A stretch of DNA of 64,000 bases from Bythopirellula polymerisocia (GTDB lineage: Bacteria; Planctomycetota; Planctomycetia; Pirellulales; Lacipirellulaceae), in assembly GCF_007860015.1 (NCBI RefSeq), contig NZ_SJPS01000007.1:1-64000 (forward strand). The letters run 5' to 3'. Below are positions 5,271 through 31,089 of this stretch, in pieces; the stretch's first letter is position 1; each line of letters starts with the position of its first letter. Below the pieces are notes generated by a model. That model saw nothing but the letters and a program-made list of their open reading frames with translations. It was not told the origin of the DNA and searched no databases. The translations under genes and the position numbers were made by a program.

Positions 5271-6221
5271 TCAGCGACGCTTCCGCCCGGCAGCCACCAA
5301 ACCAACTACACTTAATCCCAACAAAGCCAACGAGGCGGGTTCGGGGATCTCCATTACAACGACATTATCGAAGATACCGAATTGCAGGTCAGGGCGAGAC
5401 GCGACCGAAGAAAAGAAGTCCGCATAAAAGAGCGAAATATTGCCATCGGTGTTTACTCCCGCAGAACCATCGCTCGTGTCGGTCTTATCGTAGCTGACGA
5501 TCTCCAACCGACTGCTATCAGGCTTTTCGATGAAGATGCTGACAATGTTGCCGTTGACATTGAACTCCCAAGTGATCCACTGGAAGCCTGGAGACCCTGC
5601 GACACTCGTGCCAGCCGCTTGACCCTGAGCTGCTGGCGGAGGAACGGCTGGCAAGAAATCGGCGTAATAGGAATCTGATCCATTGCGAGAGCCGCCCGTC
5701 ATATCAGCAGCTGGGATAAAGAACTGTGGAGGGGACTTGAAGGCACGCCAATCGTTGCTCGAGCCTCCTTCGCCGGTTGCGATAGCTTGGGCACCACTTG
5801 CTACGTCTGCTGTGACATCGTCGTAGCCAATTCCGCCACCCATAAATTCTGTGCTGGAACCGCTACCGATCTCAAAGTTTTGCCAGGCATCGAACCGCAG
5901 CTGATAACTTCCCGTGAAGTTTTTCCCAATGGGGTAAGTCGTCAAGAATTCAGAGGCACCTGGAGCACCGATATTTGCTTGTGCCTTAAAGCCGCGGGTC
6001 GCTGCGTCGCCGACTTCGCTATTAGGTGCCTCGGGGATGCCGTCTGCGCTGTAGTCGTAGTCGGCCGTAACAGCCGTGTCGACCGAAGAAACGTTGAGAT
6101 TCCAGGTCGCGCCATTATTCATTTGATCACGATAGAGCACAGTTGCTGCAGATAGCTGCGTACAACTGAGGATGAAGGCACTTCCGGCAAGAAGTGAAAG
6201 AATTCGCTGTGGTCGGTTCAT
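5271..6221 (-). CDS. PEP-CTERM secreted protein, paralogue of neighbour
   Basis: A 316-residue protein with a strong AGGGGAG site before ATG 6221. The signal peptide ends CTQLSAA. The body is a beta-rich domain with GKNFTGSYQLRFDAWQNF and WITWEFNVNGNIVSIFIE, matching the plan of the protein encoded at 4271-5179. It ends IPEPASLALLGLSVVGLV followed by AAGRKRR, a typical PEP-CTERM tripartite signal. The two genes are tandem with 91 bp between them and may have arisen by duplication. A phased GCGCA double box lies 126-154 bp upstream. Confidence 0.88.
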   Translation of the reverse strand: MNRPQRILSLLAGSAFILSCTQLSAATVLYRDQMNNGATWNLNVSSVDTAVTADYDYSADGIPEAPNSEVGDAATRGFKAQANIGAPGASEFLTTYPIGKNFTGSYQLRFDAWQNFEIGSGSSTEFMGGGIGYDDVTADVASGAQAIATGEGGSSNDWRAFKSPPQFFIPAADMTGGSRNGSDSYYADFLPAVPPPAAQGQAAGTSVAGSPGFQWITWEFNVNGNIVSIFIEKPDSSRLEIVSYDKTDTSDGSAGVNTDGNISLFYADFFSSVASRPDLQFGIFDNVVVMEIPEPASLALLGLSVVGLVAAGRKRR

Positions 6222-6346
6222 TAGTACAACTCCCCTATTAAAAATCTCAGAGTCAAAAAACTACGGTAGGGCCAAAATAGCGCAGCCGTGAAGCCCGCAC
6301 ACTCCCTCTATCCTAACAAGCGATTCTAAAAATAGCGAAACAATTC

Positions 6347-27055: not shown

Positions 27056-27991
27056 TCAATCTCCAGCGCTCGGCGGGTCGTATTCAAAATCTTTCCACTT
27101 CATCGCGCGGCGGAAGGGTTCGATGCGGAGCATCACCTCGCCGTTTTGAAACAGTCGCACGGTGCCGTTCGATTCGCTCACGGCGATGGCGACAGCACCC
27201 GTGGCGCGGCTAATGGCAGCGGCGGCCCAATGGCGGGAGCCCAGTCCTTTGCTCAGCGTGATTTCGGCAGCAGGGGCTGAGATGTACTGGCAGGCCGAAA
27301 TGATTGTTCCTTCGGAAGAGACCACAAACGCTCCGTCGAGCTGAGCGATCTCTTTGATCGATTCGCGAACCTTCGTATCTTCCAAGCGGCGGTCGTCGAT
27401 GTTGTAGCCGCGCACGGGATCGAAGCCCAACGGGTGGCAATGCTTGAGCACCTTGCGGTGATCCCCCACGACGAACAGCGTGCCGACCGGTTTCCCCTCG
27501 CGCCCCTCGCGCCCGATATCCACAGCCAGATCGACGGTGGTCTTCAGCGTGTCGAGTGGTACACGGGTCTCGAGCTGGCGCAGATCGTGGACTGTCAGCC
27601 GACCGAGGTGTTCGTCCAGGCTGACCACACTCATCGAATCGATTACTCCCACTTCAAAACCACTATAGAGGGCAATGACAGTGGCTCCCGGGGTCAGCAG
27701 ATCGTCGGCAACACTTTCCAGCAAGGCTTGGGTCAGCCGTTCGTACACGGGGCTGTCAGGGATATTGAGTTCCACAGTGTCGAAATCAAAATCCTCGGCC
27801 TTAGCGAGATGCTGTTTTCGGTCGCTGGCTAGGATGACATGGTGCTTGCCCGTAGCATCTCGCAGTTTCGGCCAATCAATCGAACCCTCGATCAGAAACA
27901 AGAGTGCGTCGGCCTCCTCGTGTTTGGCCATGCGGGATGCGATTTCGCAAAACACTTGGAGTTGCTCGGTGAATTTGATCGACGGTGCCAT
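27056..27991 (-). CDS. DacZ-like diadenylate cyclase (c-di-AMP synthase)
   Basis: A protein of about 311 residues; ATG 27991 is used, with an in-frame GTG at 28003 possible. The N-terminal half is a pyruvate-kinase C-like alpha/beta domain (ADALLFLIEGSIDWPKL, HHVILASDRK); the C-terminal DAC domain (about residues 165-300) has LDGAFVVSSEG (the DGA motif) and LGSRHWAAAAIS in the place of RHR. The domain order matches archaeal-type DacZ rather than DisA with its DNA-binding tail. It would make c-di-AMP from ATP in the cytosol. The Arg of RHR is Trp, a position worth checking. Confidence 0.85.
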   Translation of the reverse strand: MAPSIKFTEQLQVFCEIASRMAKHEEADALLFLIEGSIDWPKLRDATGKHHVILASDRKQHLAKAEDFDFDTVELNIPDSPVYERLTQALLESVADDLLTPGATVIALYSGFEVGVIDSMSVVSLDEHLGRLTVHDLRQLETRVPLDTLKTTVDLAVDIGREGREGKPVGTLFVVGDHRKVLKHCHPLGFDPVRGYNIDDRRLEDTKVRESIKEIAQLDGAFVVSSEGTIISACQYISAPAAEITLSKGLGSRHWAAAAISRATGAVAIAVSESNGTVRLFQNGEVMLRIEPFRRAMKWKDFEYDPPSAGD

Positions 27992-28127
27992 CCACTGATT
28001 CACGGCCTTTCGTGGAGAGACCGCGCCCTAAACTGGTCAAAACATGCAGTAGCAGAGGAATATTCCACTACAAGAGACTGCAATTTAGTGCAGTATGCCC
28101 TGCCGTTCAATGGAAGTTCTGCGAAAC

Positions 28128-29936
28128 TTAGCGACTCGATGAGTTTGTCAACGATTCGCGGATAGCTACGGGCACATTGCTCGGCTCATCGTACTTCGAG
28201 AACATCATCCGATCGTACACCATGAGTGCATGGAGGGCATGGCCTAAGGGACCCGCTTCCCAGTCATGATATCGGTTTGTGTACATAAGATTCGTGAGAA
28301 AGTAGACGGCCTTGGTAGTGCGTGGACTCTTCAATTCGCGATCCGTGGCCGAGTAGAGCAGCCATTCCAAGATATGCCCCGTGGTTTTCAGCTTCCGGTC
28401 AGGGTCGTCCTGGTTCTCACGACCTTGGAACCAATTGGTACTGAAACTCCCGTCGGGATTCTGCATGCGATAGGCATAGAGCTGATGCTGGGCGACAAAT
28501 CGTTGGGCCTGGAGGTACTCGCCGTCTACCGGCTCACCCCTTTGCTGGCGAGCCTTGTAGGCGAGTGTCAGTCCAGAGAGACGATGCGTTCCTCCGCAGG
28601 CAGCACCCCGGATGGGCTGCCGCAATTCCTCGGAGACCAGTTTTCGCATATCCCATTGCATTCCCTGGTCGTTAACCCATTTGGTGTTGGAGTCGAGGTA
28701 ATGCATCAGACCGATCAGCTTGAAGGTGAGTTCCGTGCGGGGATAGCAAGTCGACATTTCCTCTTTGATCAGGTCTTTGACCTTCATCTCATGGCCATCG
28801 ACCAGCATCGGATACTCGCTGCTCACCTTGCACTGGGCCAGGATAGCCAACAACTGGCCCCGATGGCCTTGCAGGGCGGGCCCCACGCGGACATGCAGAT
28901 CCCCTTCATCGTTAATATACATCAGCTTCATCTTGCGGCACGATTGATTGAAGCAGAGCCAACCCACCGCCGAAACTGGCTTGCCTTCGGGACCGCCTTG
29001 AAGAACACGACTATAGATTTCATACGAAAGTGCCGCGTGGATTAGCTCCCAAGGGCTGCGATCTCGGGTGTTCATCGGGTGATCGTAGTAATACTTCAGT
29101 GCCCGACGAACGTGGGAGCGTAGGGCTATTTGGCTTCTGGTAAGAGGAGGCAGCTGTACCTCGACTTCTTCTTGCGCCTGCGGCTCGCGGGTCGGTATGG
29201 GGTATTCACTCAATGGAGTCGCGTTTTGCTCGGCCTCCTCTAGCTCTTCTTCAATCGGAGGTTGTGGCTCGACCGACGTGGGCTGCTCTGGGTTGAGAAT
29301 CTCGCCAATTCGTCGTCCACTACCTCGGGAAGATAGTGATCCACGAACTGTCCTCCGGGCAATCTCAGGTTCACTCTCGCGAGGTTGCACAAATACCGGA
29401 CCTTCCTCTGTGCGATCGGGCTCTGCCACACTCGCACTGTCGTCGGTCTCGTCGGATGTGGTCTTCGGGTTGGACTGTGCTAAGGGTCGCAAGGCTGCCT
29501 GCGATTGATCAGCCGATTTTCTAGCCGCGGAAGTGGTGCGGGGCGAAATCCACTTATGAAACGGCGACGGCGATGAGGGAGTTGTCGCGGATTTTTCCGG
29601 CTGCGGCGTGGTCCTACCAGCGCTGGTGTTTTCCGAAGTACGCAGACTCTTGGAGAGTGGATTCCTGGCTGCAGGTGCTTTAGTTACGGGAACCTTCGTT
29701 TCTGGGGTCTTAGCGCGAAGTGCTGGGTCGGTCAAATACCCCTTCACCGTGGATTGCCAAAGTAAGTCCTGTTGATGAATGCTGGAACCCATGGTTGGCG
29801 AATCTTCAAAGGGATCCACCAACGAGGAACCACTATCAGCATGAGCCGCCCAGGGATGAGCGACTACTAGCAGACAAAATAGGACCACTTTCTGGCACCA
29901 AGAAATCCGTACGTACTCTGGCAACGGGCGTTGCAT
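28128..29936 (-). CDS. secreted helical-toroid-like hypothetical protein
   Basis: A 602-residue protein. The signal peptide is at residues 1-33, ending HPWAAHA. Residues about 35-290 are Pro/Ser/Thr/Arg-rich and probably disordered. The C-terminal half (about 295-590) is an ordered helical domain with LRSHVRRALKYYYDHP, ELIHAALSYEIY, RGAACGGTHRLSGLTLAY and TTGHILEWLLYS, resembling the alpha/alpha toroid of terpene-cyclase-like proteins but with no clear catalytic acid cluster. Planctomycete homologues are often given misleading GTPase-activating names. It is 124 bp upstream of the diadenylate cyclase gene on the same strand. Confidence 0.75.
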   Translation of the reverse strand: MQRPLPEYVRISWCQKVVLFCLLVVAHPWAAHADSGSSLVDPFEDSPTMGSSIHQQDLLWQSTVKGYLTDPALRAKTPETKVPVTKAPAARNPLSKSLRTSENTSAGRTTPQPEKSATTPSSPSPFHKWISPRTTSAARKSADQSQAALRPLAQSNPKTTSDETDDSASVAEPDRTEEGPVFVQPRESEPEIARRTVRGSLSSRGSGRRIGEILNPEQPTSVEPQPPIEEELEEAEQNATPLSEYPIPTREPQAQEEVEVQLPPLTRSQIALRSHVRRALKYYYDHPMNTRDRSPWELIHAALSYEIYSRVLQGGPEGKPVSAVGWLCFNQSCRKMKLMYINDEGDLHVRVGPALQGHRGQLLAILAQCKVSSEYPMLVDGHEMKVKDLIKEEMSTCYPRTELTFKLIGLMHYLDSNTKWVNDQGMQWDMRKLVSEELRQPIRGAACGGTHRLSGLTLAYKARQQRGEPVDGEYLQAQRFVAQHQLYAYRMQNPDGSFSTNWFQGRENQDDPDRKLKTTGHILEWLLYSATDRELKSPRTTKAVYFLTNLMYTNRYHDWEAGPLGHALHALMVYDRMMFSKYDEPSNVPVAIRESLTNSSSR

Positions 29937-30362
29937 CGAGTCTTTCCCCCCTAATTCTACAATTCGTGCTGCCTAGTCCTGTTCCGCTTCCAGAAGTACG
30001 AGACGTGAGTCTGAAGCTGGCATTTTTCGATTCGGTATTCCGCGAGCAGTCCCAATCAAACCGACTGCGAAATCTCAGATCATCGAGAGCACACGATCCC
30101 GTAAGAACAGGTATCGGGTCTGGAGGGCCAGGAATTCACCCCGAAAAAAAGACTGAAGCCGGGAGAATCCTGGTGAGAGAAAGTGGGCACTTTGAGAGAG
30201 AATTACGGAGTCTTGTTTCTATCTGCCGAAGCGCGCTAGCACCAGGTTTCTCTGCCCAGTTTGAATAACCCATCACTAATACGATGCGGCAGCTTGGAGT
30301 CTGTTGCGCTGAGGGCGAAGACGACTGCTAGCAGTCAATGCCAAGATGAGTTTTTTTGACAC
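29937..30362. other. 426-bp intergenic stretch without a gene
   Basis: I see no convincing coding frame, RNA gene or strong terminator here. Small plus-strand frames continue through from inside the neighbouring gene and lack a ribosome-binding site. It contains the upstream region of the 28128-29936 gene and the 3' flank of the HEAT-repeat gene. Confidence 0.5.
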
Positions 30363-31055
30363 CTAGAATGGCGACATCTGTATGACGCGATCTGCGACCG
30401 AGAGTTCCCTTTTTTCAGTGAGCTGTCCTGCTTCGGCGTATTGCTGCCAGGCGGCAACATCATTGCCGAAATCCTGGCCGCTTAGCTGCTTCAATGCTTC
30501 CACTCCGGCGTATTGCAGAGCGGGATCACGATCTTTCAAGGCGATGGCCAAACACTTAACGCTTTCAGTCGAGCGGATTTGTCCGAGTGCATCCGTGGCG
30601 GCCAGTTTCACATCCAAGACTTCGCCACCTTCTAAGATCCCGCGAAGGATGGGGACGTTTTCTGGTTCTCCCCGATTACCCAATTTCTGACAGCAGACGA
30701 GTCTTACATTCAGATCGTCGTCGTTTAGCCCAGCGATCAGGACATCACGTGCCAGTGGAACCTCCATATCGCCCAGTGATTCCTGAATGGCGGCACGCAC
30801 TAGCGGATCTCCTTCGGTGCGAATCTGCATAGCCAGTTCTTCCACCAGGCGAGTTTGCTCCATGGAATCAACAGTCGTCGCTCGTGAAGCGGATTCTCGA
30901 ATAGCCGAGACTCGCATCGCGGGAGTGATAATCGAGGTGTATTCCTTCTTCTGCCAGGGGAGCGTGGTGCTACAGCCTGAAAAGAGATTCACCATGAGCC
31001 CTATGGCGACGAACCTAATTAAAGCAGAGCGGCGATTTTGAGGAGTCGAATTCAT
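30363..31055 (-). CDS. HEAT-repeat lipoprotein
   Basis: A 230-residue protein started at MNSTPQNRRS. Hydrophobic residues end in NLFSGCSTTLP, a lipobox. Residues about 70-205 contain tandem HEAT/PBS-lyase-type helical repeats: LVRAAIQESLGDMEVPLA, NVRLVCCQKLGNRGEPEN, DVKLAATDALGQI and ALQYAGVEALKQLSGQDFG. Such domains bind other proteins. It is predicted to sit at a membrane facing the periplasm or paryphoplasm. It is divergent from the ABC permease gene. Confidence 0.88.
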   Translation of the reverse strand: MNSTPQNRRSALIRFVAIGLMVNLFSGCSTTLPWQKKEYTSIITPAMRVSAIRESASRATTVDSMEQTRLVEELAMQIRTEGDPLVRAAIQESLGDMEVPLARDVLIAGLNDDDLNVRLVCCQKLGNRGEPENVPILRGILEGGEVLDVKLAATDALGQIRSTESVKCLAIALKDRDPALQYAGVEALKQLSGQDFGNDVAAWQQYAEAGQLTEKRELSVADRVIQMSPF

Positions 31056-31089
31056 GCGCGAGACATTAGCAAACACCCCAGGGGACTAC

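Follow-up and report, generated by a model that had tools for sequence, protein, structure and literature searches.

Diadenylate cyclases of the DacZ and CdaZ type are described, in the excerpt of PMC6741144 used here, as a pyruvate kinase C-terminal (PK-C) domain combined with a diadenylate cyclase (DAC) domain, and the DacZ of Haloferax volcanii is reported there to be active. The nucleotide pocket is documented for other DAC enzymes. In Listeria CdaA, according to the extract of PMC10167629, the adenine is stacked by Tyr187 and bound by backbone atoms of Leu188. For S. aureus DacA with ApCpp, the portion of PMC6368335 at hand lists contacts by D176, G177, the stacking Y192 and T207, which lies directly before the RHR motif and touches a phosphate; the third RHR residue is not named in that portion, and the tyrosine equivalent to Y192, it states, is no conserved feature of DisA or CdaS. 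Replacement of RHR by AAA abolishes the activity of M. tuberculosis DisA (excerpt of PMC3328451) and of B. thuringiensis CdaS (excerpt of PMC4568413); both mutants are triple changes as these excerpts give them, so that the third residue is not isolated. PgpH is described as a c-di-AMP phosphodiesterase (excerpt of PMC4568413). Among the papers searched, there was no work linking Pirellulales with c-di-AMP and no title on planctomycete c-di-AMP, in line with the remark of the initial annotation that c-di-AMP in planctomycetes is little studied.

We propose, with a probability of roughly 0.83, that a gene of Bythopirellula polymerisocia encodes a functional DacZ/CdaZ-type diadenylate cyclase, a predicted c-di-AMP synthase. 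The gene lies in the window, that is the whole stretch of 64,000 nucleotides analysed here, and has the following parts:

27056..28003, minus strand: dacZ-like gene, GTG start at 28003, 315 amino acids plus stop
27593..27964, minus strand: N-terminal DacZ_P domain (PF21755), residues 14-137, Pfam 5e-40, pyruvate kinase C-terminal fold
27137..27514, minus strand: DAC catalytic domain (PF02457), residues 164-289, Pfam 5.2e-22

The gene had been placed at 27056-27991, and the reading frame stands; position 27991 is an in-frame ATG at codon 5, an alternative start, and the frame runs on to the GTG at 28003. Both domains exceed their Pfam cut-offs, with 78.1 bits against 27 for the DAC domain and 136.5 bits against 27.4 for DacZ_P. 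The best NCBIfam family is the DacZ equivalog NF041371 with 161.8 bits; its cut-off of 430 bits is not reached, which counts against a functional DacZ. On these scores the protein is a relative of this narrow equivalog, not a member within it.

An AlphaFold2 model was built on an alignment of the protein and 38 relatives, with a mean pLDDT of 82.1, a pTM of 0.56 and unsure regions at residues 1-5 and 298-315. A Foldseek search with the model ranked DisA and CdaA structures at the top and put pyruvate kinase 49th and 50th. By VIA-align, residues 147-295 of the model were superposed on 2fb5_A (Z 15.0, rmsd 2.5, 130 aligned) and the DAC domain on DisA 9y9y_C (Z 15.0, rmsd 2.6, 131 aligned). The N-terminal part matched pyruvate kinase, with residues 5-130 on 3srf_D (Z 15.0, rmsd 2.2, 118 aligned) and residues 12-130 on chain residues 405-530 of 8f5t_G, its C-terminal domain (Z 14.7, rmsd 2.3, 118 aligned). 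The DacZ_P score and the VIA-align superpositions of the model thus give the N-terminal domain a predicted PK-C fold, and the architecture of the protein is that described for DacZ and CdaZ in the excerpt of PMC6741144. The designation as a DacZ-like diadenylate cyclase given beforehand holds on the Pfam domain order, on NF041371 as the best NCBIfam family (below its cut-off) and on the PK-C and DAC folds.

The active-site motifs were read in the translation:

27329..27337, minus strand: DGA motif, residues 223-225, intact
27227..27235, minus strand: R257-H258-W259, RHW where other DAC enzymes have RHR, codons CGC CAT TGG

The open reading frame, the Pfam matches and the codons bear out what had been seen before, namely an N-terminal alpha/beta domain followed by the DAC domain, an intact DGA and the string GSRHWAAAAIS. 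The active-site residues D223, G224, A225, R257 and H258 are all present in the protein, and the Arg found at the third RHR position of canonical diadenylate cyclases is replaced by Trp259. The initial annotation had taken this tryptophan to mean altered or lost activity, and had called for an alignment of planctomycete DacZ homologues.

In a search of the phylum with the protein, 260 of 392 genomes gave a match, and 20 of the 132 non-matching genomes were listed. All 40 listed genomes of its own class matched; 36 of them carried a close orthologue (>280 bits), always with RHW, and the match in the remaining four (G216, G283, G321 and G373) was a more distant RHQ protein. Together with the best 80 of at least 567 relatives from a scan of genome contigs, all 80 bearing planctomycete titles, these 36 made up 116 close orthologues, some species perhaps occurring in both sets. 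RHW was found in 116/116 (36/36 and 80/80, the latter among the best 80 of at least 567). Since the tryptophan is common to every close orthologue examined, it is no private lesion of this gene.

More distant relatives were taken from 80 places with E values of at most 3.5e-31. Of these, 70 entered the alignment and the tree; the other 10 were read separately and stand outside the tree and outside the 152-protein alignment, and L001, a duplicate of L003, was left out. The third letter varied widely among the 34 aligned distant places (RHR 13, RHQ 9, RHA 5, RHK 2, and one each with L, Y, N, M and G), and the 10 further places kept DGA and RH, with RHR in nine and RHQ in one. Arg is thus the commonest third letter outside the RHW clade (22/44 distant places), yet far from fixed. 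Two Haladaptatus plasmid proteins annotated as dacZ carry RHH and pass the NF041371 cut-off with 449.8 and 441.8 bits. When they are included, the 46 non-RHW DacZ-like proteins show an invariant R and H followed by Arg in 22 and by nine other residues in 24; this comparison covers the 44 distant places and the two Haladaptatus copies, proteins whose activity is predicted from their sequence. That Arg is still the commonest letter among distant relatives (22/46) was counted against a functional DacZ.

Across the 152 aligned DacZ-like proteins, the positions of D223, G224, R257, H258 and S276 never vary; as the third letter, 116 of them have Trp, and the remaining 36 show ten other residues. DGA is kept in 115 of the 116 RHW orthologues, L094 having DGG. 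On these alignments, Trp259 marks a single planctomycete clade, in which it is fixed, at a site that DacZ-like proteins do not conserve, and a clade trait at a variable position is not by itself the sign of a broken enzyme. The expectation that Trp in RHR would alter or abolish activity therefore found no support in this alignment or in the RHH of the two over-cut-off Haladaptatus DacZ, and Trp259 appears compatible with activity. The two Haladaptatus genes lie on large plasmids of two species (L153 and L154, NZ_CP085330.1 and NZ_CP085338.1).

In a tree of 72 proteins, a single branch separated the 36 RHW rows from all others, with a support of 98/78, just under the star of the tool, and in 99% of the bootstrap trees. 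Arg at the third letter requires three changes on this tree. Several end branches are long, including that of L056 (RHM), which is placed beside the RHW clade. Comparison of the gene with seven near relatives (NG86) gave a dN/dS of 0.03-0.16, an approximate estimate since dS, at 1.3-5.2, is saturated or nearly so. These ratios indicate that the dacZ-like gene is under purifying selection.

We also examined the genomes for other DACs and for c-di-AMP machinery. The DacZ-like protein is the sole DAC over the cut-off in its own genome, and the RHW DacZ is the only one in 30 of the 36 RHW genomes, the six others (G024, G152, G266, G307, G361 and G377) having another. A second, partial DAC-like open reading frame of 429 amino acids was seen in the own genome (L002:445-1734; G000:C1, match 432900-433091); its DACNV sensor domain scores 89.6 bits, its DAC match falls under the Pfam cut-off, and it has DGS for DGA with RHR kept. 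The 7TMR-HDED domain (PF07697), which we take to mark PgpH, gave a match over the cut-off in 39 of the 40 class genomes, in 35 of the 36 RHW genomes and in 29 of the 30 whose only over-cut-off DAC is the RHW DacZ. The exception among the 30, G167, has no DAC other than the RHW DacZ and gave no 7TMR-HDED match, which counts against a functional DacZ. 7TM and HD domains accompany 7TMR-HDED in the protein of the own genome, and the open reading frame next to it is presumably PhoH. No match to the c-di-AMP riboswitch RF00379 turned up in the own genome, which was again counted against a functional DacZ.

Outside the class, 6 of 36 genomes with DacZ-like matches had a 7TMR-HDED match, four of them over the cut-off, and it was not found in any of the 20 planctomycete genomes examined that gave no match to the protein, 16 of which carry another DAC. 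Co-occurrence with PgpH as a phylum-wide link to DACs is weakened by this rarity outside the class even where DACs occur; the PgpH-type gene follows the class rather than DAC presence, and stands as a class-level observation only (39/40). Two other candidate signs of c-di-AMP were dropped as too widespread, TrkA_C (14 matches, 12 over the cut-off), present in 13 of 14 control genomes, and DHH-DHHA1, present in 14 of 14.

These data bear on whether the DAC domain could be catalytically dead and serve as a nucleotide sensor or scaffold. The loss of activity on changing RHR to AAA in the DisA and CdaS mutants, as given in the excerpts of PMC3328451 and PMC4568413, speaks for such a state; the AAA mutants, however, also lose the invariant R and H, which this protein has. 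Throughout the RHW clade, D, G, R, H and S are conserved, and the RHW DacZ is the sole over-cut-off DAC in most RHW genomes, nearly all of these with a 7TMR-HDED match. A dead enzyme is therefore very improbable, and was set aside on the fixation of Trp in 116/116, the other conserved catalytic positions and the purifying selection. For the same reasons, and with the PgpH-type gene present in most of the genomes, the tryptophan lost its standing as a sign of a defect.

That the enzyme would make a different cyclic dinucleotide or use another nucleotide, also raised at the outset, is suggested by one differing neighbour residue in the active site and nothing more. The Trp follows the invariant RH, away from the backbone of Leu188 that recognises the base in CdaA (extract of PMC10167629); DGA, R, H and S are kept, and 39/40 class genomes have the PgpH-type gene. 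We regard this possibility as barely credible.

The base pocket of the RHW clade was compared with that of its relatives. The residue concerned is:

27284..27286, minus strand: Tyr240, the counterpart in the alignment of Listeria CdaA Tyr187, which stacks on adenine; kept in the protein

At this position, 73 of the 116 RHW proteins have Tyr, and the other 43 have I, M, H, L, N or R. Tyr is found in 13/13 RHR and 2/2 RHH aligned proteins and in 8 of 9 RHQ proteins, the ninth having Phe; these counts come from related sequences and are not independent. The replacement of Tyr is the main sign of a possibly reshaped base pocket in the RHW clade, and is not a feature of the protein studied here. 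Directly before RH, at the T207 position of S. aureus DacA, the protein has Ser and 81 of the 116 RHW proteins have Ala, which counts against a functional DacZ.

The clade might accordingly make c-di-AMP with changed kinetics or regulation, Trp259 reshaping the nucleotide pocket or the dimer interface and, for example, taking over the stacking of the adenine where the usual Tyr is gone. In favour are the frequent loss of Tyr in RHW proteins, its presence in all aligned RHR and RHH proteins, and the stacking role of Tyr187 in Listeria CdaA (extract of PMC10167629). Yet Tyr240 is retained in the protein itself, and residues other than Tyr or Phe also occur at this position in RHA (3/5), RHN and RHG proteins, all without Trp; one further RHR protein, L181, outside the 152-protein alignment, has Phe. 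As DisA and CdaS do not conserve the Tyr, according to the portion of PMC6368335 at hand, its loss would need no compensation, and the relatedness of the sequences weighs on the counts as well. We consider changed kinetics or regulation unlikely, if worth keeping in mind. A more specific version, in which the pocket has been re-engineered and the fixed Trp helps to hold the adenine or the interface of the dimer, so that the stacking Tyr can be lost in many members, is a long shot; if true, the kinetics or the inhibitor sensitivity of these DacZ enzymes would be distinct.

The neighbourhood of the gene was compared among the relatives. Two genes lie upstream on the same strand:

28128..29936, minus strand: 602-amino-acid protein, no family match, signal-like N-terminus (by eye)
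30363..31076, minus strand: HEAT-repeat protein, HEAT_2 5.2e-17, lipoprotein-like N-terminus (by eye)

The 602-amino-acid protein gave no Pfam or NCBIfam match at 0.001. Among the best 80 of at least 567 relatives, 48 of 71 loci with at least 2 kb of upstream sequence have its homologue there on the same strand, and 56 of 65 loci with at least 4 kb have that of the HEAT-repeat protein. In many of these 80 loci the two form a conserved cluster (28128-31076) upstream of dacZ, and within the DNA examined neither was found in the six RHW loci L033-L038 of another family of the class (f5). Downstream, the window has MarR and RND-efflux genes whose place beside dacZ is not conserved: in 152 loci including its own, with flanks mostly of 1.5 to 5 kb, there were one MarR and three HlyD matches. 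Scans of viral contigs, with the protein, alignment A1 or the Haladaptatus DacZ as query, gave no relatives, and PADLOC returned a single weak 'Diadenylate cyclase' match of 19.4 bits. A mobile or defence role was set aside on these three grounds.

Two other matches were seen in passing. The phage record MT836427.1 ('Bacteriophage sp.', human faeces) contains an unannotated DAC-like stretch at 6131-6331 (tblastn 7e-5). The PDB entry 37jy_A, 'Panoptoo PanS synthase', is weakly matched by the protein (E 0.016), a hint at a DAC-like synthase in a different type of system; a literature search on Panoptoo PanS returned nothing relevant.

A functional DacZ/CdaZ-type diadenylate cyclase remains our preferred reading, and its grounds are the domains, the predicted fold, the invariant D, G, R, H and S, the variability of the third letter, the fixation of Trp, the purifying selection and the phosphodiesterase-type gene. 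The N-terminal PK-C-like domain would probably sense a ligand or drive oligomerisation. Two DAC domains would face each other with one ATP each, and the two ATP would be joined into c-di-AMP, which may then be degraded by the PgpH-type phosphodiesterase encoded elsewhere in the genome. 'RHR' is unfit as a three-letter test of activity for DacZ proteins, since its third letter varies among those aligned and just R and H do not, and a planctomycete class carries a predicted archaeal-type c-di-AMP synthase together with PgpH-type genes.

Judged from its sequence, the protein adds an ordinary member to the DacZ/CdaZ family, with a predicted activity. It shares with haloarchaeal DacZ (NF041371) the two-domain order and a DAC domain with DGA and RH; its tblastn identity to the two Haladaptatus copies is 32.5% and 37.1%. 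Its N-terminal domain is DacZ_P (PF21755), whereas that of haloarchaeal DacZ is DACZ_N (PF19294), and its RHW stands against RHH in both Haladaptatus copies. Also among the closest known systems is CdaZ / DacY of Methanocaldococcus jannaschii. The enzymes CdaA/DacA, DisA and CdaS have the same DAC fold with DGA and RH, but other N- or C-terminal domains; in alignments with CdaA, which has RHR, about 70 residues align by phmmer. The distant planctomycete DacZ-like proteins (RHR, RHQ, RHA, RHK and others) have the same DAC core, and one that was checked, L045, has a weak DacZ_P match of 33.5 bits; they differ from the protein in their often longer open frames, in their third letter and in their place outside the RHW branch.
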